Source: Planctomycetaceae bacterium
Lineage (GTDB): Bacteria > Planctomycetota > Planctomycetia > Pirellulales > Pirellulaceae
Assembly: GCA_027487485.1 (NCBI GenBank)
Contig: JAIYDN010000084.1
Coordinates: forward strand, 62,001-126,000
Direction of reading: 5' to 3'
DNA length: 64,000 nt
Shown: positions 35,018 to 46,902 of the stretch, piece by piece
Numbering within the stretch: the first letter of the stretch is position 1
Layout: the number at the start of each line of letters is the position of its first letter
Made by a program: the position numbers and the translations under genes
The notes under the pieces: generated by a model
The model's input: only the letters and a program-made list of their open reading frames with translations
What the model was told of the DNA's origin: nothing
Database searches by the model: none

Positions 35018-35704
35018 CTATTCGTCCATGCGACGCAGAATCAGGCGCCACATATCGATTTCGGATAGCTGGGTACCACCAAAACGACTAGTCACTTCCC
35101 AGTGGTAGAATTGCCTAAGCGCTTTCAGGAATTCCGTTTCGTCGGCGAACTGTTGCACGCTTGGATTGTCACCATAGTCCGTACGCACAAATCGATTGCC
35201 ATTCCAGGCGAGGTGCGTGCCACCTTCCTTGTGAGAGGTCCGAAAGGCTGTGCCGCGTTTCATGGCCGCGATGATTGCGGCTTGCACGGCAGTTACGGAT
35301 TCGAGATGCTGATCTGCGTTTAAAGCATCGTCGCACAACAACTGGTACCGTTGCGCAGAATCCTCGCATGGACCTGGAGGTTCGGCAGGCGTGAGCTCGC
35401 GTGTCCACAGTTCAAACCAACTGTTCGAGGTCTTGCTGTAGTACTCAAAATTGCCTGATGTTGGATCGACCCAGGTCACGTTCATCGTAAGCAGGTAAAA
35501 ATTGCCTGCAGGCAAAGCAGCTTCAAAGACAACCTGAAAATCGTACTCAGCTCCCACGAGAGTTGACTTCGCTCGCATGCACAGTTTGTTGTTTTCCAAC
35601 ACAACCTCGAACAGAGTCTTCGTGTCGCGCTCCAAGGACAACTTCACTTCGCGTGGAGACCGAATATCTTGGAAGCGTATTTCGCGTCGTGAACCGAATT
35701 TCAT
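35018..35704 (-). CDS. Uncharacterised protein of the ECF-sigma sulfur locus
   Basis: 228 residues. I do not recognise a family. The N-terminal half is beta-rich (FEVVLENNKLCMRAKST, YDFQVVFEAALPAGNFYLL). The C-terminal half is helical and polar, with FRTSHKEGGTHLAWNGN and LKALRQFYHWE. It has no signal peptide, no membrane segment and only a few Cys residues, so it is probably cytoplasmic. It lies 90 bp downstream of the TsdA-like cytochrome gene on the same strand and may be the last gene of the sigma/anti-sigma/cytochrome transcript, or may have its own promoter. Confidence 0.7.
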   Translation of the reverse strand: MKFGSRREIRFQDIRSPREVKLSLERDTKTLFEVVLENNKLCMRAKSTLVGAEYDFQVVFEAALPAGNFYLLTMNVTWVDPTSGNFEYYSKTSNSWFELWTRELTPAEPPGPCEDSAQRYQLLCDDALNADQHLESVTAVQAAIIAAMKRGTAFRTSHKEGGTHLAWNGNRFVRTDYGDNPSVQQFADETEFLKALRQFYHWEVTSRFGGTQLSEIDMWRLILRRMDE

Positions 35705-35794
35705 GATGACAATGAGATTGGTAGTTCAATGTTGCCAAGGGACTGATGTTTTGGGCACCATGGAATCATAGGCTGAGTTCGAAAATACGTTCGT

Positions 35795-36634
35795 TCATTT
35801 TGCAATTGACCCGTTGTATTCGCCAAGATTCTCTTTGGGCGGCAAATGCTCCCGCAGATTAAAATGGGGCCGTTCTTTGGAATTGATATAGGCAGCGATA
35901 TCGAACGCCTCAAGATCGGTTAGGTTCGAATCATCAAGCGGCATAGCGACCTTTAACCAGGCGGCGAGATTTTCTACGGAGGACAAGCCTGCACCGTCGT
36001 TGTAGGATCGCTCGCCCCAAACAGGCGGATTGCTATTGTCACCCTGTCCATCTTCTTGATGGCATTCTGCACAACGAGACACATACAACGACGCACCTTG
36101 CACGAGATCAGCCTGATCGATTTTCGCAGAAAGTTGCTGGAGCCCTCCAGGCCCAATCGGACGAATGGGGTTCATTTGCATGGGTAGCCCCTGTGATAAC
36201 GAAGTGATGTAGGTTGTCACCGCCACAGAGACTTCGCTCCCCAAGGGTGGCCGAGTACCGTTGCAACTGCGCATAAAACAATTGAGCACTCGGTCTTCAA
36301 GAGTGATGACGCGGTTCTCACGAGGAGACCATGCGGGATAGGCGGTTGCTGTCCCAAGAAAAGTACCAGCCTTCGGGTGCCGTCCATTGTCCAGGTGGCA
36401 GCTTGCGCAGTTCAAAGCATTGCCGACATAATTCTTCGACAATGGGTGCGAGACTGTATTGTTGACGATCGCTTCACCTAACCGACTTATGGCCGCAAGC
36501 TTATCATCCGATCGTTCGACAGAAATAGGGGACTGGGCAATCACAGACCATGCGGAGCCAAAGAAGCATGCACCCGCAAAAGCAACCTTGAAGATGTTTT
36601 GCTGAATCCGCCCTAACGATCGTTGAAAAATCAT
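35795..36634 (-). CDS. Dihaem c-type cytochrome, thiosulfate dehydrogenase (TsdA)-like
   Basis: 279 residues with a signal peptide (about 1-34, ending VIAQS). Two haem-c sites: NCASCH (first domain) and CAECHQEDGQG (second domain). Around the first site, YVGNALNCASCHLDNG and LEDRVLNCFMRSCNGTRP match the TsdA pattern, in which a Cys can be an axial haem ligand. The second domain has PPVWGERSYNDGAGL and the likely Met ligand in VAMPLDD. TsdA oxidises thiosulfate to tetrathionate in the periplasm. Placement beside persulfide dioxygenase, rhodanese and SQR genes supports a sulfur role. Another c-type electron carrier is the alternative. Confidence 0.72.
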   Translation of the reverse strand: MIFQRSLGRIQQNIFKVAFAGACFFGSAWSVIAQSPISVERSDDKLAAISRLGEAIVNNTVSHPLSKNYVGNALNCASCHLDNGRHPKAGTFLGTATAYPAWSPRENRVITLEDRVLNCFMRSCNGTRPPLGSEVSVAVTTYITSLSQGLPMQMNPIRPIGPGGLQQLSAKIDQADLVQGASLYVSRCAECHQEDGQGDNSNPPVWGERSYNDGAGLSSVENLAAWLKVAMPLDDSNLTDLEAFDIAAYINSKERPHFNLREHLPPKENLGEYNGSIAK

Positions 36635-36666
36635 TCCCTACTCATTCCAGGTCGTCGTGGGAGAAA

Positions 36667-36933
36667 TCACCCAAAAGTTGCTGAGGCTCCAGAGCCACCA
36701 TGCTTTTCTTCCCAACGTTGTTTTAAGCTCTGTTGAAGTCGCTCTTCGAAAGATTTAGGCATCGCGTAAGGTTGACCTGCTCGGTACAGCGAAATCGTCT
36801 GACGAATGTTATCAACAACGACTTGGCAAGGGTCGCAGCCTGCAAGATGCTGCGAAAATTCTTCGCATATCTCAGTAAGCTGCGCTCCGTCGACATAGTC
36901 GTTGAGAGCTTTCAGTAATTCTTCGCAGGTCAT
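36667..36933 (-). CDS. Soluble zinc-binding anti-sigma factor (ZAS type)
   Basis: 88 residues. The zinc-anti-sigma motif His-x3-Cys-x2-Cys is HLAGCDPC (His29, Cys33, Cys36); Cys23 just upstream may be a further ligand or redox partner, and Cys3 is also present. No membrane segment follows, so this is a cytoplasmic ZAS of the RsrA/ChrR kind rather than a membrane anti-sigma factor. It ends in a Lys/Glu-rich helix and a Gly/Ser tail. It lies 65 bp after the ECF sigma gene with a promoter-like motif in that gap, so it can be made separately from the sigma factor. Likely sensor of a thiol-reactive signal such as persulfide or sulfide; the signal is inferred from the neighbours. Confidence 0.82.
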   Translation of the reverse strand: MTCEELLKALNDYVDGAQLTEICEEFSQHLAGCDPCQVVVDNIRQTISLYRAGQPYAMPKSFEERLQQSLKQRWEEKHGGSGASATFG

Positions 36934-36960
36934 ATTGTTTTCCTCGACAATGGTACTTGA

Positions 36961-36994
36961 TGGGGCAGATCCACGAGCATCAAAAAGGTTACAA
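36961..36994 (-). promoter_or_regulatory. Candidate ECF-sigma promoter upstream of the anti-sigma gene
   Basis: Read on the minus strand: TTGTAACCTTTTT (36994-36982), then 9 bases, then GGATCTGCCCC (36972-36962). The same motif occurs without gaps at 37699-37730 on the plus strand. The AAC-containing -35 is like those used by ECF sigma factors. The expected start of transcription is about 30 bases before the anti-sigma ATG. Confidence 0.55.
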
Positions 36995-36998
36995 GAAA

Positions 36999-37637
36999 CT
37001 AGGAATGTTTATGGTCGGGAATCATGGCTTGAAGTGCATCGCCAAATTTCTTCGTCAAACGTTCACGCAGTATTAGGCGCGCCCTAAGGAGACGCACCTT
37101 GACGTTGGATTCTGTCAGCTCCAACGCATGCGCTGTATCGCGCACCGAAAGCCCCTCGACATCGCGCAGGATGAAAACCAAACGGTATTTGTCGTCCAGT
37201 TCCAGAAGGGCTTTTTGTAGTTCTTCTTGGACTTCCGATTGCTGAGCAATCTCCTCTGCAGTCTGACTCCATGGAGCAATGAATTCCGGGTGCGGAACGT
37301 CACTGTAGCTATCTTCCGACGCCATTTCTGACATCGAAACCATTTTCACCGTTCGCTTTTTGCGAAGGATTTTTAATGCATTATTCGTCGCGATTCGCAA
37401 CACCCAGGTAGCGACAGAGGATTCTTCGCGAAAATCGGCTATGTGCTCGATCAAAGCCATAAAAGTTTGCTGAGTTGCGTCTTCCGCGTCTTGAGCTTGA
37501 TGAAGAATCCGAAAGGTCAAGCCGTAGACTCGCGGCTGAAGCTTGGTAACAAGTTGCTGAAACGCAGCAAAATTGCCCTCTTTGGCTTCGTGCAGCAAAT
37601 CAGTCTCTGTGCGCTCATCTAGTAGTTGATTCTCCAT
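36999..37637 (-). CDS. ECF-type RNA polymerase sigma factor
   Basis: 212 residues. Region 2 (about 25-95) has LVTKLQPRVYGLTFRIL, QDAEDATQQTFMALIEHI and VATWVLRIATNNAL. Region 4 (about 145-200) has ALLELDDKYRLVFILRDVEG and the helix-turn-helix LSVRDTAHALELTESNVKVR. It has no extra domain. It would direct RNA polymerase to a small regulon, held inactive by the anti-sigma factor encoded next. It is divergent from the persulfide dioxygenase gene with a 147-bp spacer that carries the candidate ECF promoter. Confidence 0.95.
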   Translation of the reverse strand: MENQLLDERTETDLLHEAKEGNFAAFQQLVTKLQPRVYGLTFRILHQAQDAEDATQQTFMALIEHIADFREESSVATWVLRIATNNALKILRKKRTVKMVSMSEMASEDSYSDVPHPEFIAPWSQTAEEIAQQSEVQEELQKALLELDDKYRLVFILRDVEGLSVRDTAHALELTESNVKVRLLRARLILRERLTKKFGDALQAMIPDHKHS

Positions 37638-37698
37638 TTTGCCATCCCGGTCCAGCTCGAGAAAATGTCGTCGGTTGTCCGATTTCGACTAGAAAGCA

Positions 37699-37730
37699 TT
37701 GTAACCTTTTTTGGCGTTGCGGCTCTACCC
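37699..37730 (+). promoter_or_regulatory. Candidate ECF-sigma promoter for the persulfide dioxygenase operon
   Basis: TTGTAACCTTTTT (37699-37711) is followed after 9 bases by GGCTCTACCC (37721-37730). It aligns without gaps to the motif at 36994-36961 on the other strand, sharing the 13-base upstream block and GGnTCTnCCC. It lies about 55-85 bases before the dioxygenase ATG at 37785. Confidence 0.55.
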
Positions 37731-37784
37731 TAACATACGGAAGCAAGAAATCCACGGAACTCGATCAACGCTAGGGACTAAAGA

Positions 37785-39209
37785 ATGTTGCTCAAATACT
37801 TCTACGACAAATCACTCGCTCATGCCTCCTACATGGTTGGCTGCCAACGTACCGGTGAGGCAATCGTTATCGACCCTAGCCGTAGTGTCGAGCAGTATCT
37901 TGAAGCAGCTGCGGCGGAAGGTTTGCGAATCACCGGTTCTGCAGAAACGCATATTCATGCCGATTTCGTTTCGGGATCCCGCGAACTAGCCGACCGAGTC
38001 GGTGCAAAGCTTTACCTATCTGACGAAGGGCCCGCGGATTGGAAGTACCAGTTCGCGGACAAGCATAGCTCTCAATTGCTAAAGGATGGTGATGTCATCT
38101 GGGTCGGAAAAATCAAGCTGGAGGTAATGCATACTCCAGGTCACACTCCCGAGCACATTTCCTTTGTGTTAACGGATGAGGGAGGCGGCGCTAATCTCCC
38201 GATGGGTATTTTCACGGGTGACTTTGTTTTTGTGGGTTCGATTGGACGCCCCGATTTGCTTGAAACGGCCGCAGGAGTCGTTGGCAGTGCTGAAAAAGGT
38301 GCTCGTCAGCTTTACCATTCCATCGAACGATTCAAGAACCTTCCAGACCATCTTCAAGTTTGGCCTGCTCACGGTGCCGGTAGTGCATGCGGCAAAGGCC
38401 TGGGAGCGATCCCATCAACCACTGTTGGGTACGAAAAGCTCTTCAATCCATCGCTTCAGTATCAAGACGAACAAGAATTCGTGGATTACATCCTGGCTGA
38501 CCAGCCTGAAACACCGTTCTACTTTGCGGTCATGAAGCGAGTGAATAAAGTCGGCCCTGAGTTGGCTCGAAATCTACCCGCTGTTCATCCAGTTCCTGCA
38601 GGCGACTTAGCAGCAAGCTCGCTTGATCAAATGGTCATCGATATTCGAAACGCCGCAAGTTTCGCAGATGGCCACGTTGCAGGGGCGATAAACGTTCCTT
38701 CCAATTCGCTTGTGCAATGGGCTGGATTCTTCGTCGATTACAACAAATCACTCCTTCTGTTAACCGATTCCGATTCTTTAGCCGCAAACCTGCGCAGCCT
38801 TCGTTCTATTGGGATCGATAATGTTCAAGGTTACTTTGACATCAACGCATCTGAAGTGCAGAAACAATTTACGGAATCCTATCCTTCGGCCACACCGCAG
38901 GAACTGGCGGCAAGTATCGAGAACGGGTCGGTGCGGCTGATCGATGTCCGTGCGGCAACGGAATTCAACGAAGGGCATATTCAAAATGCCGAACACCATT
39001 TCTTGGGAAACCTGCTAAGGCAGCTATCCCAAATGGACAAGTCCAAGCCACTCGTTGTCCAATGTCTAGCCGGAGGTAGATCCGCGATTGGTACCAGCAT
39101 TCTCCAGCGGGCCGGGTTCAAGGTCACGAATATGTCTGGCGGATATAAAGCATGGCGCGCCTCTGGGCTGCCCAATCACCTTGAAGAACCCACCACGGTT
39201 GGTTCTTAA
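37785..39209 (+). CDS. Persulfide dioxygenase fused to tandem rhodanese domains
   Basis: 474 residues. The N-terminal metallo-beta-lactamase fold (about 1-245) is of the ETHE1/persulfide dioxygenase type: ETHIHADFVSG (His56, His58, Asp60), VMHTPGHTPEHISF, FTGDFVFVGSIGRPDL and WPAHGAGSACG. Iron-dependent oxidation of persulfide to sulfite is expected. Rhodanese domain 1 (about 255-350) has lost the active-site Cys, since the loop reads LLLTDSDSLAA. Rhodanese domain 2 (about 375-465) keeps Cys427 in VVQCLAGGRS. The fusion resembles the PDO-rhodanese (CstB/PRF) proteins that turn persulfide plus sulfite into thiosulfate. First gene of the rightward arm; cytoplasmic. Confidence 0.9.
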   Translation: MLLKYFYDKSLAHASYMVGCQRTGEAIVIDPSRSVEQYLEAAAAEGLRITGSAETHIHADFVSGSRELADRVGAKLYLSDEGPADWKYQFADKHSSQLLKDGDVIWVGKIKLEVMHTPGHTPEHISFVLTDEGGGANLPMGIFTGDFVFVGSIGRPDLLETAAGVVGSAEKGARQLYHSIERFKNLPDHLQVWPAHGAGSACGKGLGAIPSTTVGYEKLFNPSLQYQDEQEFVDYILADQPETPFYFAVMKRVNKVGPELARNLPAVHPVPAGDLAASSLDQMVIDIRNAASFADGHVAGAINVPSNSLVQWAGFFVDYNKSLLLLTDSDSLAANLRSLRSIGIDNVQGYFDINASEVQKQFTESYPSATPQELAASIENGSVRLIDVRAATEFNEGHIQNAEHHFLGNLLRQLSQMDKSKPLVVQCLAGGRSAIGTSILQRAGFKVTNMSGGYKAWRASGLPNHLEEPTTVGS

Positions 39210-39264
39210 AACCCGCTCTGGCTCCGATTGACATTCGTCCCTTGTTGAAACTGAGTATCCCCCT

Positions 39265-40086
39265 ATGGACTCTATCACAATTTTGACCATCGTGCTTGGA
39301 GCCTTCGTTGGCTTCTCGCTCGGGCTGACTGGTGGTGGTGGTGCGATATTTGCCGTCCCCATTCTGATTTATGCATTAGGGGTGCCCGCGAGAGAGGCTG
39401 TTGGGATATCGCTGCTTACGGTGGGTAGCACCGCTTTTGTCGGATTTGTTCAGCGAGCTCGACGGAAAATGGTCGAGTTCCCCACGGGCCTGCTGTTTGC
39501 TTTCGCAGGAATGATTGGAGCACCCATTGGTTCAAGGCTGGCCGACTTCATTCCAGAGCCTGTGATGCTTGCTCTGTTTGCTGGCCTAATGATTCTGATC
39601 GCTGTTCGAATGTGGTGGAAGGCAAACGAAAAGTCCGCCAACCTGCCCATTCTTGATAGCGACAACGCTGGCCCAACCTGCCGACGAGATCCAGAAGGAC
39701 GTTTGCGTCTAACGTCCCAATGCGCGATGTTACTAGGCATCGTCGGTCTGAGCGCCGGCATCTTGACGGGCATGTTTGGTGTCGGTGGTGGTTTCATCAT
39801 CGTCCCTGCTTTGGTTTCGTTCGCATGCATGGGAATCCAACGCGCGATAGGAACGTCCCTACTTATCGTCACGCTGGTAAGCTTATCAGGTACGACAAGC
39901 CACCTGATATCCGGCAAGGAGCTATCACTTTCAACGGCGGGCTTGTTCACCCTGGGTAGCCTTATTGGTTTGTTCCTCGGTAGCTGGCTTGCCCAGCGAA
40001 CAGCAGGACCCATGCTGCAACGGGTATTCGCAGTTTCAATCGTGCTGGTTGCTACCTACGTTATTCTTCAAACAGTCACTGGGTAG
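39265..40086 (+). CDS. TauE/SafE-family sulfite/sulfoacetate exporter
   Basis: 273 residues with about eight hydrophobic segments in two pseudo-repeats. Each repeat starts with the Gly-rich family motif, GFSLGLTGGGGAIFAVPIL near the N-terminus and AGILTGMFGVGGGFIIVPAL in the middle. Family role: export of sulfite or other sulfonates, or transport of anions, across the inner membrane. Positioned 55 bp after the persulfide dioxygenase, which would make sulfite, so sulfite export to relieve toxicity is the natural reading. Confidence 0.88.
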   Translation: MDSITILTIVLGAFVGFSLGLTGGGGAIFAVPILIYALGVPAREAVGISLLTVGSTAFVGFVQRARRKMVEFPTGLLFAFAGMIGAPIGSRLADFIPEPVMLALFAGLMILIAVRMWWKANEKSANLPILDSDNAGPTCRRDPEGRLRLTSQCAMLLGIVGLSAGILTGMFGVGGGFIIVPALVSFACMGIQRAIGTSLLIVTLVSLSGTTSHLISGKELSLSTAGLFTLGSLIGLFLGSWLAQRTAGPMLQRVFAVSIVLVATYVILQTVTG

Positions 40087-40168
40087 CATCGATGGATGGC
40101 AAAATTTTCAAAAGAGTTTTAAGTCGAAAAATCATCGCCCTAGGAAATCGAAATTGAGGACAGCATTT

Positions 40169-41296
40169 ATGTACACGACAAACCATGCCCTATTTCTCCG
40201 GCTAACGACTACGGCCCTCGTTGGCTTTGCCTGCCTGTCGTTTTTGAGTGATATCAACGCGCAAAGCGGCCAAGGACGAGGTCAGGGATTTCGTGGCGGT
40301 CAAGGCCCTGGCGGTCCAGGGAATGGCGGTCCAGGAAAAGGTGGCCCAGGGCGAGGACCTGGAATGCACGGAAAAGGGCCAGGGGCAGACCTGCACGACG
40401 ACCGACATGATTCAGATCGTGACGTGTTTCAGTTTCTTCTAACCAACCACGAGAAAATCAAACGCACTGTCAAGGAGCTTCCCAACGGTGTGGAGACTCT
40501 GACGGAATCCGAAACTCCTGAAGTCGCTGCCAAGATTCAGGAGCACGTGGAATGGATGAACGTTCGCATTAAAGACACAAAGCCAATCCGTATGCGAGAT
40601 CCGCTTTTTGCGGAAATCTTCAAACATACCGACAAGATCAAAATGCATCATAAAGACACGGACATGGGCGTCCTTGTTACCGAGACATCCGACGATCCGG
40701 TAGTTGTCAAATTGATTCAAGCACACGCAAAGGTTGTCTCGGGATTTGTCGAACGTGGCTTCGCAGAAGCCATGAAGAACCACCCCGTCCCTGACACCAA
40801 GGGAACCGACGTGGCTCCCGCGACGCCAGCCAATCCCGTAATTTCAAATCATGGCTCCGTAGTTCGACTACCCAATGCCGCTCACCAACCTCGGGAAGGA
40901 ACCAAGATTCTTATCGACGTCACGCGTGGTAGCGAACCAGCCGAACTGAATGCGGCGATTGAAAAGGTCGCCAAATATCTAAACATCTATGCGGGGGGAG
41001 GAGCAAAGCCCGCAAAAGGGCAATTCGCTGTGATCTTTCATGGCGACGCTACTCTGGCTGTCTTGAATGACGATGCATACGCCGCAAAATTCAAGACAAA
41101 CGGCAACCCAAACCTTGACCTGCTTCACCAACTGCATGAACAAGGGGTGGAGTTGTTCGTCTGTGGCCAAACACTGATCAGTAAAGACGCAAAGCCTGAG
41201 GAAGTGGCCGTGTTTATTGATACCGCCGTTTCAGCGCTGACGGTGGTTGTCAATTTGCAGGCTGATGGCTACGCGCATGTGCCGCTCGGGAAGTAG
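40169..41296 (+). CDS. Exported DsrE-domain protein with a Gly-rich N-terminus and duplicated helical modules
   Basis: 375 residues from the ATG at 40169, with GAGGA upstream; the open frame to 39965 runs inside tauE. Signal peptide to about residue 33 (SFLSDINAQS), then a Gly/Pro repeat region, then two related modules (VFQFLLTNHEKIKRTV... and FAEIFKHTDKIKMHHK...) with recurring SDDP and PEVAA pieces and many His. The C-terminal ~110 residues are DsrE/DsrF-like (ILIDVTRGSEPAELNAAIEK, FAVIFHGDATLAVLND, GVELFVCGQTL) with the conserved Cys at residue 332. DsrE proteins carry sulfur as persulfide, usually in the cytoplasm; this one appears exported. The helical part is not recognised. Confidence 0.75.
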   Translation: MYTTNHALFLRLTTTALVGFACLSFLSDINAQSGQGRGQGFRGGQGPGGPGNGGPGKGGPGRGPGMHGKGPGADLHDDRHDSDRDVFQFLLTNHEKIKRTVKELPNGVETLTESETPEVAAKIQEHVEWMNVRIKDTKPIRMRDPLFAEIFKHTDKIKMHHKDTDMGVLVTETSDDPVVVKLIQAHAKVVSGFVERGFAEAMKNHPVPDTKGTDVAPATPANPVISNHGSVVRLPNAAHQPREGTKILIDVTRGSEPAELNAAIEKVAKYLNIYAGGGAKPAKGQFAVIFHGDATLAVLNDDAYAAKFKTNGNPNLDLLHQLHEQGVELFVCGQTLISKDAKPEEVAVFIDTAVSALTVVVNLQADGYAHVPLGK

Positions 41297-41416
41297 GACC
41301 ATGCGGCCGCGTGGATGGTTCTGGTTTGAATTGCTTGATTAATTTTCCTCGTTCCTCTTACATTCTGTTACCCTTACAGCCTGGCACACTGGCAACCTGA
41401 CGCATTGGAAATTCCT

Positions 41417-42622
41417 ATGACTTCCATACCATCGACCAAAGACCATTACCAAATCCTTATCCTTGGCGGTGGTACTGCAGGCATCACCGTCGCCGCCCAA
41501 CTTCGACGCAAGCTCAAGCGTTACGATCTTGCGATCATCGAACCGTCCACCAAACACTATTACCAGCCGCTTTGGACTCTGGTGGGTGCCGGTGTCTTCC
41601 ACAAAGAACAAAGCGAACGCGAGGAAGCAGCTTTCATTCCAAAGGGTGCCGACTGGATTCAGGATTCTGTCGCCGAATTACAACCCGAACAGAACTGCGT
41701 GGTCACTCAGACTGGACGACGTATTTCTTATGACTATCTTGTCATCGCTCTTGGTATTCAGGTCGACTGGAACAAAATTCCTGGGCTTGCCGAGGGGTTG
41801 GGCCGGCAGCAAATCTGTAGCAATTATTCGTATCAGCAAGTGGATTACACCTGGGAATGCGTCAGCAAGTTCCAAGGGGGAACGGCCCTGTTCACGATGC
41901 CCAACACGGCAGTCAAATGTGGCGGTGCTCCGCAGAAGATTATGTACTTGGCCGATGACCACTTCCGCAAATCAGGCGCACGTGACAAATCAAATGTTAT
42001 CTTTGCGTCAGGCCAGAGTGCTTTGTTTGCCGTTGAGAAGTATCGTAAGACTCTCGAAGTCGTCGCTGCTCGCAAATCGATCGATATCCGTCTCAAACAC
42101 AACTTGGTCGAGATCAAACCGGACCAGAAAGAAGCGATCTTTGAACACTTGGATACCAAAGAACGAATAACGATTCCGTTCGATATGATCCACGTAACTC
42201 CACCGATGAGCGCTCCCGATCTCATCAAGTCGAGCACACTTGCCAACGCCGCAGGCTGGGTAGACGTCGATAAGTACACGCTGCAACATCCTAGATACCT
42301 AAATGTATTTCCCATTGGCGATTGCAGTGGTTTGCCTACTTCAAAAACGGGTGCAGCCATTCGAAAGCAAGCGCCGGTACTGGTCAAGAACTTGATCTCT
42401 GCCATCGCAGGACTGCCGCTAGAGGCCAAGTATGATGGCTACACTTCTTGCCCGCTGGTAACAGGCTATGGAAAGCTAGTTCTGGCAGAATTCGATTACG
42501 AAGGCAAACCGCAAGAAACCTTCCCTTTCGATCAATCGAAGGAGAGGCTCTCCATGTACTTGCTCAAAGCATACGCTCTCCCTCGGTTATATTGGCACGG
42601 GATGCTGCGTGGGCTAGGGTAA
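41417..42622 (+). CDS. sqr: Sulfide:quinone oxidoreductase, type II (mitochondrial-like)
   Basis: 401 residues from the ATG at 41417 (a TTG four codons earlier is in frame). FAD-binding ILILGGGTAGITVAAQLRR. The active-site cysteines are in NTAVKCGGAPQKIMYLAD (Cys168) and YDGYTSCPLVTGYG (Cys345). VTPPMSAPD, AGWVDVDKYTLQH, GDCSGLPTSKTGAA and the end FPFDQSKERLSMYLLKAY closely match the human SQRDL-type family. It oxidises hydrogen sulfide at the membrane, passing electrons to quinone and sulfur to a thiol as persulfide, the substrate of the dioxygenase encoded upstream. It lies 120 bp after the DsrE gene. Confidence 0.95.
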   Translation: MTSIPSTKDHYQILILGGGTAGITVAAQLRRKLKRYDLAIIEPSTKHYYQPLWTLVGAGVFHKEQSEREEAAFIPKGADWIQDSVAELQPEQNCVVTQTGRRISYDYLVIALGIQVDWNKIPGLAEGLGRQQICSNYSYQQVDYTWECVSKFQGGTALFTMPNTAVKCGGAPQKIMYLADDHFRKSGARDKSNVIFASGQSALFAVEKYRKTLEVVAARKSIDIRLKHNLVEIKPDQKEAIFEHLDTKERITIPFDMIHVTPPMSAPDLIKSSTLANAAGWVDVDKYTLQHPRYLNVFPIGDCSGLPTSKTGAAIRKQAPVLVKNLISAIAGLPLEAKYDGYTSCPLVTGYGKLVLAEFDYEGKPQETFPFDQSKERLSMYLLKAYALPRLYWHGMLRGLG

Positions 42623-42632
42623 GGTTCGCACA

Positions 42633-43283
42633 ATGAATGGATCGCAAATGGCTGATGAAGGACGGGATTTTGATCGAGTAGCCCATTGGGAGAATGTTTA
42701 CTCCACCAAAAAGACAACGGAAGTAAGTTGGTTCGAAGCAGAACCGACCACTTCGCTTGATCTGATAGATCGCTTTTTGCCACAGGGCGGGCATATCATT
42801 GATGTCGGCGGCGGCGCTTCGTTTCTAGTCGATAGGCTTGTTGCGAAAGGCTCTTGGGATGTTACGATACTCGATATCGCATCGTCTGCCATGGAACACG
42901 CAAGAAAGCGACTTGGCGAAAACGCATGGAAGGTCCATTGGATTTGCGATGACATTACTAAGACAACGCAACTGGCAAAATACGACTTTTGGCATGACCG
43001 AGCCGTGTTTCATTTTCTTACTAATTCGGATGATCGCCAAGCGTACCTCAGCCGATTGAACGAGTCCCTTGTCATTGGCGGCTACTTTGTCGTCGCAACG
43101 TTTGCACCCGATGGACCAGAGAAATGCAGTGGTCTACCTGTTTGCCGCTATAGCTTCGATCAACTCGAGAACGTCCTCGGAAGAGGATTCAAGCTGGTGT
43201 CGAACGCTCAGTTCGGCCACGTGACACCAACAGGGAAAACACAACAATTCACCTTGGCCGTATTTCAAAAGATCGAATCTTAG
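42633..43283 (+). CDS. Class I SAM-dependent methyltransferase
   Basis: 216 residues. It starts 10 bp after the sqr stop. ENVYSTKKTTEVSWFEAEP is a common opening of small-molecule methyltransferases of this type. The SAM-binding motif I is IIDVGGGASFLVDRL, followed by VTILDIASSAMEHAR and the acidic WICDDITKT, then FWHDRAVFHFL. A substrate cannot be named. Its tight coupling to sqr makes a thiol or sulfide methyltransferase a reasonable guess, but many homologues methylate other small molecules. No signal peptide. Confidence 0.85.
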   Translation: MNGSQMADEGRDFDRVAHWENVYSTKKTTEVSWFEAEPTTSLDLIDRFLPQGGHIIDVGGGASFLVDRLVAKGSWDVTILDIASSAMEHARKRLGENAWKVHWICDDITKTTQLAKYDFWHDRAVFHFLTNSDDRQAYLSRLNESLVIGGYFVVATFAPDGPEKCSGLPVCRYSFDQLENVLGRGFKLVSNAQFGHVTPTGKTQQFTLAVFQKIES

Positions 43284-43318: not shown

Positions 43319-44491
43319 ATGCAGATGAACAACATGGAGACATTTCGTCAGTGGGCGTGGAGAGTATCGCAGCTAGCCATTGTTGTCGCAATGATCGGTG
43401 GAGTTGCTTACTGGAACTTCGCTGCGGTCAGCGTGATCGAACACAAAAGTTCCTCCGGTGAGATCATCGCCGAGGTTTTGGGGACTGGCACTTTAGAGGC
43501 TAGAGTGAAGTCAATCATCAGTCCAAAAATCGCTGGTCGTATTCACGAGATTCTGGTCGATCAAGGCTCGAATGTAACGAAAGGCCAGCCTCTATTCACT
43601 TTGGATGACGCCGAACTCAAGCAGCAAGTCGAGATTGCACAAGCGACCACCGCCATGTGCCAAGCATCCCTCGCGAGATTGCAGGCAGACCAAGATCAAT
43701 CCAAGGCGGTACTCGACAGCGCCCAAAAGGAGATTAACCGGATTCAGCAGCTGCTTCGATCGAACTCGATATCGGAGGATGAAGCGGAGAAATCGACGGA
43801 ACGATTGCGTATCGCTGAAGCAGGGTTGTCGCGTGCCAATGCTGCATTGTTGGAGGGGCAGCGCCAGATAATAACTTCGGAAAAGACCCTTGCTTTTAAT
43901 GAAGCAAGGTTGGCAGATACTCGCGTCTCGGCACCCTTCGATGGTTTGATCATTAAACGCTATCGGGATCCAGGCGATATTGGTGTGCCCGGCAGCCCTA
44001 TCTTGATGTTGGTGTCCACCAATGAAATATGGGTGAGTGCGTGGGTCGATGAAACTGAGATGTCTCGAGTTCATGCAGAGCAGCGGTCCAGGATTCTGTT
44101 CCGCTCCGAGCCCCGAGAAGCGTATCAAGGTACCGTCTCTCGACTGGGGAGAGAGGCAGATCGGGAGACTCGCGAATTCGTGGTCGATGTTCGCGTCGAA
44201 TCGTTGCCTAAGAACTGGGCCGTGGGGCAACGCGCCGAAGTCTTTATTGAAGTAGAGCGGAAAGTCAATGTCTTGCTTATACCCACTAAATACATCGTAT
44301 ATCGCGAAAACCAGCCTGGTGTTTTCTGCAAGGTCAGCGGTCGTGCTATCTGGCGGTCTATAACACTAGGAATTCGAGGACGGGAGACCACTGAAGTGAT
44401 AGAAGGCCTTCAAATGGGCGAATCCGTATGCATGCCTGTTCATGGAAAAGATGTACTGCTCGAAAACCAACGTGTTAAGGTGGTTCCATGA
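43319..44491 (+). CDS. HlyD/RND-type periplasmic adaptor (exporter 1)
   Basis: 390 residues, with GGA before the ATG. N-terminal membrane anchor (LAIVVAMIGGVAYWNFAAV). Lipoyl-like half-motifs GTGTLEARVKSIISPKIAGRI and SAPFDGLIIKRYRDPGDIG flank a coiled coil (about 100-205), then a beta-barrel domain (IWVSAWVDETEM) and the end ENQRVKVVP. It would bridge an inner-membrane ABC pump to an outer-membrane channel. It overlaps the permease gene by 4 bp; no TolC-like gene is nearby. Confidence 0.9.
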   Translation: MQMNNMETFRQWAWRVSQLAIVVAMIGGVAYWNFAAVSVIEHKSSSGEIIAEVLGTGTLEARVKSIISPKIAGRIHEILVDQGSNVTKGQPLFTLDDAELKQQVEIAQATTAMCQASLARLQADQDQSKAVLDSAQKEINRIQQLLRSNSISEDEAEKSTERLRIAEAGLSRANAALLEGQRQIITSEKTLAFNEARLADTRVSAPFDGLIIKRYRDPGDIGVPGSPILMLVSTNEIWVSAWVDETEMSRVHAEQRSRILFRSEPREAYQGTVSRLGREADRETREFVVDVRVESLPKNWAVGQRAEVFIEVERKVNVLLIPTKYIVYRENQPGVFCKVSGRAIWRSITLGIRGRETTEVIEGLQMGESVCMPVHGKDVLLENQRVKVVP

Positions 44492-45702
44492 ACCTAGCCT
44501 TTAAGGATGTACGGCACAACTTAGGTCGGTTCAGTTTGACTGCCGTCGGTATCGGGATGATGCTCATGATCGTGATGGGTATGGCTGGCATCTATCGTGG
44601 TCTCATTGAAGATGCGACCCTGGTCATCGACCGCATAGGAGGTGACCTATGGGTTGTGCAACGCGACACGCGAGGCCCGTTTGCGGAAGTGTCACGACTT
44701 CCCAAAACTATGGTCCATCGAGTGGAAGCTGTCCCTGGAATCGAGACGGCACGCGAATTTGTCTATCACACGATCCAGCGGCAACACGACGGAAAGCCAC
44801 TTAGAATGTCGATTCTCGGCTTGAGTTGGCCGACCGACAAAGGCGAATGGCTACCCTTGGTAGCGGGAAGGCCTCTCGCTCAAAATCATTTTGAATTGAT
44901 CGCCGACCAATCGCTCGGCTTTCAGCTCAATGAATCAATCCAACTTGGAAAAGAGAAGTATGTCGTTGTTGGCATAACCAATGGCATGGTGAGTTCCGGG
45001 GGCGATGGGATGAGCATTGTTACCCTGAGCGATTCTCAAGCGATCCAGTTCGATAGCGTGGGTGAGGCTCTGCGGCTTGAGCGTTCTGCTCGCGCGCGTC
45101 GAGCGTTAGATGTGGACTTGTTTCTCAAGCAACCTCAGTTGGTTGAGCAACTCTCGCAACCTACTTCACAGCTGCCCGCCGTCTCTTCGCCACAGATCAG
45201 TGCCGTCGTTGCTCGCATCAAGCCTGGCTACAATATCGAAGAAGTTCAGCAAACGATCACGAACTGGGGCGATGTCTCGGTATTCACTAAGCCAGGCCAG
45301 GAAGACCTTTTACTTCAAGGAATGGTAGATAAGGCTAGACGGCAGTTGGGGATGTTTCGTGCTCTCCTTACGATCATCGCCGCAGTTATTATGGCTCTGA
45401 TCCTGTATACGCTGACCTTAGACAAACTGCACTCGATCGCGTTATTGAAATTGCTCGGAGCGCCGGACCGAACGATTCTTGGAATACTCTTGCAACAAGC
45501 AATCGGTTTGGGGGGGATAGGATATGGTATCGCGTTTCTTATCGGACAACAGCTCTTCCCATTCTTCCCTAGACGCGTAGTGATCACGAACCAGGATCTA
45601 GTTCAGCTCCTAGTCATTGTTTTGATCATATCGGTGCTGTCCAGCTTGCTCGGCATCTGGCGTGCAATGCGAGTGCAACCCACAGAAGCGTTAATGGGAT
45701 AA
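44488..45702 (+). CDS. ABC transporter permease, MacB/DevC (FtsX) type (exporter 1)
   Basis: 404 residues. N-terminal membrane segment (FSLTAVGIGMMLMIVMGMAGIYRG), a large periplasmic domain (about 45-270), then three C-terminal segments (LLTIIAAVIMALILYTLTL, AIGLGGIGYGIAFLIGQQLF, LVQLLVIVLIISVLSSLLG) and the typical end RVQPTEALMG. This is the FtsX topology of macrolide/DevC-type exporters, which expel hydrophobic molecules or lipids rather than import. It overlaps the adaptor gene (ATGA) and is followed 5 bp later by its ATPase. Confidence 0.92.
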   Translation: MNLAFKDVRHNLGRFSLTAVGIGMMLMIVMGMAGIYRGLIEDATLVIDRIGGDLWVVQRDTRGPFAEVSRLPKTMVHRVEAVPGIETAREFVYHTIQRQHDGKPLRMSILGLSWPTDKGEWLPLVAGRPLAQNHFELIADQSLGFQLNESIQLGKEKYVVVGITNGMVSSGGDGMSIVTLSDSQAIQFDSVGEALRLERSARARRALDVDLFLKQPQLVEQLSQPTSQLPAVSSPQISAVVARIKPGYNIEEVQQTITNWGDVSVFTKPGQEDLLLQGMVDKARRQLGMFRALLTIIAAVIMALILYTLTLDKLHSIALLKLLGAPDRTILGILLQQAIGLGGIGYGIAFLIGQQLFPFFPRRVVITNQDLVQLLVIVLIISVLSSLLGIWRAMRVQPTEALMG

Positions 45703-45707
45703 GTAAA

Positions 45708-46412
45708 GTGACCGAACCGCTAGCCATAGAAACTCGCAATCTCAACAAAGTCTACAATAGTGGACGCACGGAGGTTGTGGCTCTACGGGAAGCGACGCTG
45801 CAAATACCCAAAGGCCAAGTGGTCGCACTGTTGGGCCCAAGTGGTTCTGGGAAATCGACTTTGCTTACGATCATCGGCCTCGTCATCCCACCGACGTCCG
45901 GACAAGTCTTCATCAATGGTGAGTTGATCGTTGATGGTTCGCTCGCAAAAACGAATCTTCGAAACTACCGACGTAAGAATGTGGGTTTTGTCTTCCAGAA
46001 AGCCAATTTGATTCCATTTTTATCGGCAATCGAAAACGTTCAAATTGCCATGGAGTTAAACCACACTAGCAGTTTCAATGCACGTCGACGAGCGGCGGAA
46101 TTGCTCGATGAATTTGGTGTCTTGGAACGATCTTATGACAAACCATCGAGGCTTTCCGGCGGTGAACAACAGCGAGTCGCCGTTGCGCGAGCATTGGCCA
46201 ATAACCCAGCTGTGATACTCGCCGACGAGCCGACGGCTGCCCTCGACAGCCACCGCGCTCAACAAGTCATGGAACTATTTGCTAAAATTGCTCACGAACA
46301 AAATGCTGGCGTCATCGTTGTCACGCATGACCATCGCTACTTAGAGGTATTTGACGCGATCTTTGAAATCGAGGATGGTGTACTACGACAACGAGTAGCA
46401 GTCGTCAAATAA
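45708..46412 (+). CDS. ABC transporter ATP-binding protein (exporter 1)
   Basis: 234 residues from a GTG at 45708. Walker [12 protein letters not shown], signature [15 protein letters not shown], Walker [13 protein letters not shown], and the switch His in [14 protein letters not shown] LolD/MacB-type subunit matching the permease before it. Gene order adaptor-permease-ATPase on the plus strand. It follows the sulfur genes with no obvious terminator between, so export of a sulfur-linked or methylated product is conceivable but unproven. Confidence 0.93.
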
Positions 46413-46428
46413 CTATCGAGTCGGGCTG

Positions 46429-46902
46429 GTGCAAGGTCGGCGAAAGCGAGCGGAATTCCAACAAGTGAACCACGACAATAATCTTCCTGAAAAAGCCACG
46501 TCTCCAAACCAAGTGGGAGCAGGAAATCCAGCGTCTGCCGAGATAGATGCTCGAATTTATATGGCTGCTGAACGGACTTTTCTTGCATGGATTCGCACTG
46601 GGATCGCGTTAATGGGGTTCGGCTTCGTCGTGGCTCGTTTTGGGTTGTTTCTTCGGGAGTTAACCATCGCCGGAACGCAACAGAAATTGCCAAGCACCGG
46701 ATTCTCGCTTCCCATCGGAATTGGCTTAATCGCCTTTGGAATCATCGTGAACATTGTTTCCGTTATACGTCATCGCAGATACATTGATGCCATTGATCGC
46801 AATAGCTTTAGGTCGGCATTCGGATCGACATTCGCAATTTGGGTCGCTTTCTTGCTGGCTCTCGTCGGACTGGCGATGGCTTTGTATCTCGCAAGTCTTT
46901 AG
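46429..46902 (+). CDS. DUF202 (YidH-like) membrane protein
   Basis: 157 residues from a GTG at 46429; a second GTG 13 codons later is also possible. After a polar N-terminal tail of about 40 residues comes the DUF202 hallmark AAERTFLAWIRTGIALMGFG, followed by three membrane segments (VVARFGLFL, SLPIGIGLIAFGIIVNIVSV, FAIWVAFLLALVGLAMALYL). Function of the family is not known. It is 16 bp after the exporter ATPase, the last gene of the rightward run. Confidence 0.85.
   Translation: MQGRRKRAEFQQVNHDNNLPEKATSPNQVGAGNPASAEIDARIYMAAERTFLAWIRTGIALMGFGFVVARFGLFLRELTIAGTQQKLPSTGFSLPIGIGLIAFGIIVNIVSVIRHRRYIDAIDRNSFRSAFGSTFAIWVAFLLALVGLAMALYLASL

Follow-up and report, generated by a model that had tools for sequence, protein, structure and literature searches.

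A predicted zinc anti-sigma/ECF sigma switch at a planctomycete sulfide oxidation locus

What controls the sulfide oxidation genes of a planctomycete, and what is any one of its many extracytoplasmic function (ECF) sigma factors for? ECF sigma factors number in the dozens in planctomycete genomes (the 7.49-Mb genome studied here has 68 sigma-region-2 matches), and to our knowledge few of them have a known job. Both questions are raised by a divergent operon pair in a 64,000-nt stretch of a Planctomycetaceae bacterium (GenBank assembly GCA_027487485.1, contig JAIYDN010000084.1, positions 62,001 to 126,000; hereafter the window), in which genes for an ECF sigma factor and a zinc anti-sigma factor face a set of sulfide oxidation genes. 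A preliminary description of this DNA proposed that the anti-sigma factor senses persulfide or sulfide and releases the sigma factor. Our analysis suggests that the pair is probably a switch for the sulfide oxidation genes, built on a zinc site of three cysteines and one histidine (CHCC) in the anti-sigma factor and answering sulfide, persulfide or polysulfide. The two operons part at 37638-37784, the leftward one running in the order ECF sigma, 88-amino-acid zinc anti-sigma and TsdA-like dihaem cytochrome, and the rightward one in the order dioxygenase-rhodanese, TauE, DsrE, sulfide:quinone oxidoreductase (SQR) and methyltransferase. Their features are as follows.

35795..36634, minus strand: TsdA-like exported dihaem cytochrome c (Pfam PF21342, 47 bits), after the anti-sigma gene.
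36667..36933, minus strand: soluble zinc-type anti-sigma factor, 88 amino acids (PF13490, 29 bits, cut-off 22.2).
36967..36994, minus strand: predicted ECF-type promoter TTGTAACC-N14-GGATCT, 61 nt 5′ of the anti-sigma ATG.
36999..37637, minus strand: ECF sigma factor, 212 amino acids (PF04542, 60 bits; PF08281, 50 bits; TIGR02937, 108.2 bits, cut-off 42.9).
37699..37726, plus strand: predicted ECF-type promoter TTGTAACC-N14-GGCTCT, 86 nt 5′ of the dioxygenase ATG.
37785..39209, plus strand: CstB-type persulfide dioxygenase, with a metallo-beta-lactamase domain, a Cys-less rhodanese domain and a rhodanese domain with Cys427.
39265..40086, plus strand: TauE/SafE exporter (PF01925, 169 bits), probably of sulfite or thiosulfate.
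40169..41296, plus strand: DsrE-domain protein (PF02635, 45 bits), its ATG set at 40169 and its start signal-peptide-like by eye.
41417..42622, plus strand: SQR, human-SQOR-like (493 bits to human SQOR).
42633..43283, plus strand: S-adenosylmethionine-dependent methyltransferase (PF08242, 43 bits), beside the SQR gene also in the related loci L049 and L050.

The two operons are joined by a shared promoter element. The same element, TTGTAACCTTTTT-N5-T-N-G-N-GG-N-TCT, occurs twice in gaps of the window, before the anti-sigma and dioxygenase genes, and is also listed there as an inverted repeat. Searched across the whole genome with up to three mismatches, this two-copy pattern returned both copies, one site with one mismatch and one with three (reversed control, 1), and the one-mismatch site lies 73 nt 5′ of a rhodanese-YgaP gene on a different contig. 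A generalised pattern, TTGTAAC[CT]-N14-GG[AC]TC[AT], matches exactly at 20 sites across 11 sigma-bearing genomes, 9 of which have it (2 matches for the reversed pattern, the control here); in 12 relatives that lack this sigma, chosen from its family, order and class, it matches exactly once (control 1). Seven of those 12 have weaker ECF matches (1e-21 to 1e-29), and none has the anti-sigma. Three of the four exact matches in this genome stand before genes, and the predicted sites mark three units: the operon headed by the dioxygenase gene, the distant rhodanese-YgaP gene and the anti-sigma/TsdA-like pair. Seven further matches in the 11-genome scan divide into five that lie 5′ of same-strand genes and two inside open reading frames (ORFs). 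The five encode a dioxygenase, a Sulf_transp (YeeE) protein, a rhodanese-YgaP protein, a DUF2202 protein and a Tll0287-like haem protein. For the dioxygenase, Sulf_transp and Tll0287-like genes the site is apparently on a contig other than that of the sigma. The Tll0287-like gene with its promoter-like site (L079:661-1275, in the L049 genome) is a possible further regulon member. Papers are cited here by PMC number, from excerpts: TGTAAC is the −35 deduced from an ECF promoter of another group mapped by 5′ rapid amplification of cDNA ends (PMC8315932), and it matches the ECF16 consensus (PMC8315932, PMC3420878), while the −10 in the window differs.

The sigma and anti-sigma genes also occur together across genomes. 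One scan of genome contigs found 21 planctomycete sigma relatives with 49-87% identity, plus 8 weak matches elsewhere; the closest come from Pirellula and other planctomycete metagenome-assembled genomes. An anti-sigma gene lies 3′ of the sigma gene in 16 of these 21, with a gap of 43 to 587 nt. Six loci (L048-L052, L057) retain varying sets of dioxygenase, rhodanese-YgaP, SQR, TauE, YeeE, DsrE and TsdA genes, L048-L053 being close relatives and not independent. The sigma is found at E < 1e-50 in 5/392 planctomycete genomes (next match 1e-32), with at most 7 candidates per genome scored, and among 384 genomes searched with at most 14 candidates each, a set perhaps not wholly inside the 392, the anti-sigma profile matches exactly those five. 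Exactly one anti-sigma gene is present in each of 15 sigma-bearing genomes (four of the five and eleven scan relatives), and in 7 of the 15 it lies apart from the sigma gene. Two sigmas that are 45-50% identical (G357, G167) were considered as orphans without sulfur genes; we rejected this on locating their anti-sigma genes elsewhere.

The anti-sigma gene is where the promoter is kept. TGTAAC[CT] occurs within 200 bp upstream of 20/26 anti-sigma genes, including all seven unlinked ones, and of 1/26 sigma genes (at the sigma locus L065 the upstream sequence is only 31 bp long), compared with 408/26,400 random windows. In 16 of the 20 the −35 sits between −53 and −71; at L046 it precedes the sigma instead of the anti-sigma gene. 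The anti-sigma gene therefore looks like the autoregulated member of the pair, as judged from these predicted sites.

Comparison of neighbourhoods ties the pair to sulfur. With one query set, sulfur-handling genes are found within about 10 kb of 17/26 anti-sigma loci, and the same set finds them at 0/20 other ECF loci of this genome and 0/18 next-nearest planctomycete ECF loci (0/38 in all, the controls being a choice of 20 of 67 other sigma-region-2 matches and 18 of 25 next-nearest sigma loci, L014-L038). The query set was assembled after the loci had been looked at, and some queries come from loci that are counted (L046, L049, L050, L057, L058, L102), each of which is also matched by an outside query. 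The preliminary description had assigned the pair to the sulfur locus and named a finding of the pair away from sulfur genes in most relatives as evidence to the contrary; relatives were compared, and the assignment is borne out, as it is by the ECF-type promoter common to both arms and the rhodanese-YgaP gene. Taken gene by gene, this holds for the anti-sigma gene but not for the sigma genes that lie apart from it, which have sulfur genes nearby in 0/7 cases (three of the seven lie on contigs shorter than 5 kb). Comparison across genomes thus shows a predicted promoter, its candidate regulon, sigma/anti-sigma co-occurrence and a link to sulfur.

Is the anti-sigma a plausible sensor? The sigma factor has no cysteine, and the anti-sigma carries C3-x25-H29-x3-C33-x2-C36 with an additional C23. 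C3, H29, C33 and C36 are kept in all 26 aligned anti-sigma members, and by this motif the protein is of the CHCC redox type, a zinc anti-sigma (ZAS) motif with an upstream fourth ligand. The H-x3-C-x2-C motif of the preliminary description is present, but it omitted C3, the counterpart of which, the N-terminal zinc cysteine, is needed for and decides oxidative release in RsrA (PMC4960319). RsrA proper was considered and rejected (27.8 bits against an equivalog cut-off of 62.5). Zinc motifs are common among soluble anti-sigma factors of class I (about 72% have one) and can be purely structural (PMC7406223), so that the motif alone is no proof of sensing. C23 is kept in 24/26, missing only in L054 and L055, both without sulfur genes nearby. 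We rejected C23 as a sulfur-specific sensor, since the link is weak: seven other members without sulfur neighbours have it. A thiol switch made of the CHCC zinc site and C23 is plausible from these residues.

The enzymes were said to be of the mitochondrial type, and this is half right. All the genes named earlier (SQR, dioxygenase-rhodanese, TauE, TsdA-like, DsrE, ECF sigma, anti-sigma) are present. Among solved chains the best match to the SQR is human SQOR with 493 bits; the next chain is an ATP synthase subunit (101 bits), the next enzyme flavocytochrome c (69 bits), and other SQRs reach at most 69 bits. Both active-site cysteines, Cys168 and Cys345 counted from ATG 41417 (172 and 349 from TTG 41405), align with those of human SQOR, which we take to be a type II SQR, in line with the earlier assignment; the NCBIfam type III selenoprotein SQR model gives 257 bits, below its cut-off of 525. 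The dioxygenase is matched near-full-length by 3tp9 (483 bits) and by 3r2u (391 bits), presumably Staphylococcus aureus CstB, and no further solved chains reach E ≤ 1e-20 except those of BpPRF, which we take to be ETHE1-type, with 95 bits. Because of these matches we read it as CstB-like, not mitochondrial, and rejected a mitochondrial ETHE1-type dioxygenase. The reported fusion to rhodanese is there, but with two rhodanese domains, the first without cysteine; the only cysteines of the protein (20, 202, 427) all align with 3r2u. By full-length match and by its lactamase fold with an inactive and an active rhodanese, the enzyme is predicted to be CstB-type. The SQR and dioxygenase matches mean that the enzymes are no closer to the mitochondrial pathway than to the S. 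aureus cst system. The earlier interpretation is thus partly supported: comparative evidence favours it on regulation, and half of it on “mitochondrial”.

The TsdA-like cytochrome has haem motifs CASCH at 76 and CAECH at 188 and matches 5lo9 (133 bits), presumably TsdBA, and TsdA 4wqd (114 bits). Its Cys119 is aligned with a cysteine of 5lo9, which we take to be the axial ligand of haem 1 in TsdA. Orthologues with 68-71% identity lie 3′ of the anti-sigma gene in L048-L051. Proteins at L056:8150-8704 and L066:6007-6558 resemble part of the window DsrE protein and have no Pfam match.

What governs the same dioxygenase where this sigma is missing? The CstB-type dioxygenase is far commoner than the sigma (138/384 genomes, E ≤ 1e-60). 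In a sigma-less comparison set of the best 29 dioxygenase loci, from the 138 genomes with a match, TGTAAC[CT] occurs within 400 bp upstream in 0/29 and within 1200 bp in 3/29, and the full pattern within 1200 bp in 0/29. At sigma-bearing dioxygenase loci TGTAAC[CT] is found in 6/6 within 1200 bp and in 2/6 within 400 bp (the window and L049); in L048, L050, L051 and L057 the site lies 739-949 bp 5′ of the dioxygenase with genes between, the −10 of L051 being divergent. An ArsR-family gene adjoins 6 of the 29 sigma-less dioxygenases within 1.5-kb flanks (L166, L168, L169, L179, L180, L181). The three ArsR proteins scanned match PF01022 above cut-off, and the three that were read have four cysteines each. 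A tblastn search with three planctomycete ArsR proteins found relatives at 0/32 loci of sigma, anti-sigma and rhodanese-YgaP genes. ArsR is likely the counterpart regulator in sigma-less planctomycetes, and the loci look like cases of regulator exchange on one operon, ArsR versus sigma/anti-sigma. No CsoR-family protein was found among the window proteins in general Pfam/NCBIfam scans, which included no search aimed at CsoR.

We propose that the ECF sigma would be made from a promoter that it does not itself drive and be held by the soluble CHCC zinc anti-sigma, the two proteins being predicted to bind each other. On a build-up of sulfide, persulfide or polysulfide, signals suggested by the content of the regulon, the anti-sigma cysteines (C3 with C33 or C36, perhaps via C23) would be oxidised or sulfurated, zinc would leave and the sigma would be released. 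Free sigma would read TTGTAAC-N15-GG[AC]TC promoters before three targets: (a) the genes for the CstB-type dioxygenase, TauE, DsrE, SQR and methyltransferase, (b) the rhodanese-YgaP gene on its separate contig and (c) the anti-sigma gene together with the TsdA-like gene. Because the predicted targets include the anti-sigma gene and leave out the sigma gene, induction would feed back negatively and the loop would shut itself off.

Several observations weigh against this proposal. The −35 is missing before 6 of the 26 anti-sigma genes (L046, L047, L056, L058, L066, L067), and the −10 of several distant members is GCATC or another sequence that differs from GG[AC]TC. One of the four exact matches in this genome lies within an unrelated ORF, and a search for a wider regulon with one mismatch gave 7 extra sites against 18 for the control; with no enrichment, the visible regulon comes to three units. 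The 0/7 count for separate sigma genes belongs here too, as do nine anti-sigma loci without sulfur genes (L053, L054, L055, L059, L067, L103, L115, L116, L117), among which L053 is a 3-kb contig and L116 was covered over 7 kb; in the L059 genome there is apparently a site before a dioxygenase gene on another contig. Among the unlinked anti-sigma genes, that of L115 has nitrite-reductase-type cytochromes beside it and that of L118 an efflux pump, and the regulon may therefore be wider than sulfur. C23 is absent from some members, and the AlphaFold model of the anti-sigma is poor: four helices are predicted with a local confidence (pLDDT) of 65 and a predicted template modelling score (pTM) of 0.29, too poor for searching.

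Other explanations can be set against the same evidence. One is that the pair senses disulfide or oxidative stress in general, in the manner of RsrA, and that the sulfur genes are part of a thiol-stress regulon. RsrA, which answers disulfide stress (PMC4960319), has the same CHCC motif, and in two members (L053, L067) the anti-sigma gene is followed by a thioredoxin-family gene that has a site upstream of it (the full pattern in L053, a looser one in L067). However, the gene-preceding sites of this genome are confined to the three units listed above, with no catalase, peroxiredoxin or msr gene among the identified site-bearing genes, and we consider this explanation unlikely, though the strongest of the alternatives. 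Less likely again is a signal of zinc loss or gain, in which sulfide or thiols would strip the anti-sigma of zinc with no persulfide chemistry on its cysteines. Sulfide lowers zinc availability in S. aureus and brings on a zinc-limitation response (PMC5480029), and the four zinc ligands are kept more strictly than C23; against this, the identified site-bearing genes include no zinc transporter.

That the TTGTAAC element serves another DNA-binding regulator instead of being this sigma's promoter would fit an element known from its sequence alone, but the element has two parts at nearly fixed spacing, its −35 is identical to that of reported ECF16 promoters, its frequency tracks the sigma across genomes and it is kept before anti-sigma genes even when these are unlinked. 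ArsR relatives are moreover absent at the 32 loci tested, and we regard such a regulator as improbable. Chance proximity of an unrelated ECF pair, which 68 sigma-region-2 matches in the genome would allow near any gene, was already disfavoured and is very improbable given the shared promoter, the sigma/anti-sigma co-occurrence and the sulfur set near 0/38 chosen other ECF loci. The preferred reading remains a switch that answers sulfide, persulfide or polysulfide.

Further genes adjoin these loci. The preliminary description began the locus at 35018, but the gene at 35018-35704 was rejected as a member: neither Pfam nor NCBIfam gives a match, and the loci of the 21 relatives contain no homologue. 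Past the methyltransferase, the window at 43319-46902 holds genes for HlyD, a MacB/FtsX-type permease, an ATP-binding cassette (ABC) ATPase and DUF202. At L115:7452-9578 an unlinked anti-sigma gene is followed by NapC/NirT-like and cytochrome c552 (NrfA-type) genes, and at L118 the anti-sigma gene adjoins HlyD and a resistance-nodulation-division (RND) pump, likewise (by eye) at L068 and L058. Three unlinked anti-sigma genes lie near a gene for a cytochrome bd-like subunit I (L102:4713-8093, L119:6547-9813, L103:10025-12579), called by Pfam for L102 and by eye for L119 and L103; L102 and L119 also have a YgaP-TM protein and a small membrane protein with PTCMSG. At L059:6231-9628, 5′ of the sigma gene, are SCO1-like and formate/nitrite-transporter family genes and, by eye, an oxidase-like gene. 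The formate/nitrite-transporter family includes hydrosulfide channels.

If the reading is right, one of the dozens of ECF sigma factors of a planctomycete can be assigned a partner, a promoter, a regulon of three units and a likely class of signal, all of them testable. If persulfide is what the anti-sigma answers, the RsrA paradigm of redox control would reach as far as reactive sulfur, and a single pathway would offer an example of unrelated regulators, an ArsR repressor and a sigma/anti-sigma pair, exchanged between close relatives. One review names CstR, SqrR/BigR and FisR as reactive-sulfur sensors, with OxyR, LasR and OhrR also responsive (PMC9774590), and in titles and abstract openings, with most subscription papers outside the scope, we found no ECF/anti-sigma regulator of persulfide or sulfide oxidation. 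We tentatively suggest, with rather less confidence than we have in the switch itself, that a sulfane-sulfur-sensing zinc anti-sigma/ECF pair is a further, separate persulfide response beside the CsoR, ArsR and FisR types, replacing the ArsR of relatives in some planctomycetes and inducing the anti-sigma and sulfur genes but not the sigma.

Each known system shares part of this arrangement. FisR works with sigma-54 as an activator protein and is unrelated to ECF/anti-sigma pairs. In Cupriavidus it is likewise an alternative sigma that drives sulfide-oxidising genes, according to a reference title in PMC9774590. The ECF16 factors (Bradyrhizobium EcfF, Brucella BcrS) share a −35 of TGTAAC or GTAAC and a similar spacing (PMC8315932, PMC3420878), whereas their −10 is CGAA, compared with GG[AC]TC here, and they are induced by hydrogen peroxide or hypochlorite. 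The ArsR-type repressors SqrR and BigR govern SQR or sulfurtransferase/dioxygenase genes (PMC9774590) as repressors without a sigma; ArsR-family genes, possible SqrR/BigR orthologues, stand at 6/29 sigma-less dioxygenases, whereas an ArsR relative is found at 0/32 loci of the present system. Streptomyces SigR-RsrA likewise has a sigma held by a small CHCC zinc anti-sigma, a binding that is only predicted here, while the planctomycete protein falls below the RsrA cut-off, is linked to different genes, has the promoter on the anti-sigma and not the sigma gene, and is encoded apart from the sigma in 7/15 genomes. The S. aureus cst system (tauE, cstA, cstB, sqr; PMC5480029) also has a single persulfide-linked control over a CstB-type dioxygenase, TauE and SQR. 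There the regulator is the repressor CstR, whereas here it would be an ECF sigma with a zinc anti-sigma, and in place of CstA (for which no query was run) the planctomycete has an exported DsrE protein, a TsdA-like cytochrome and a distant rhodanese-YgaP.

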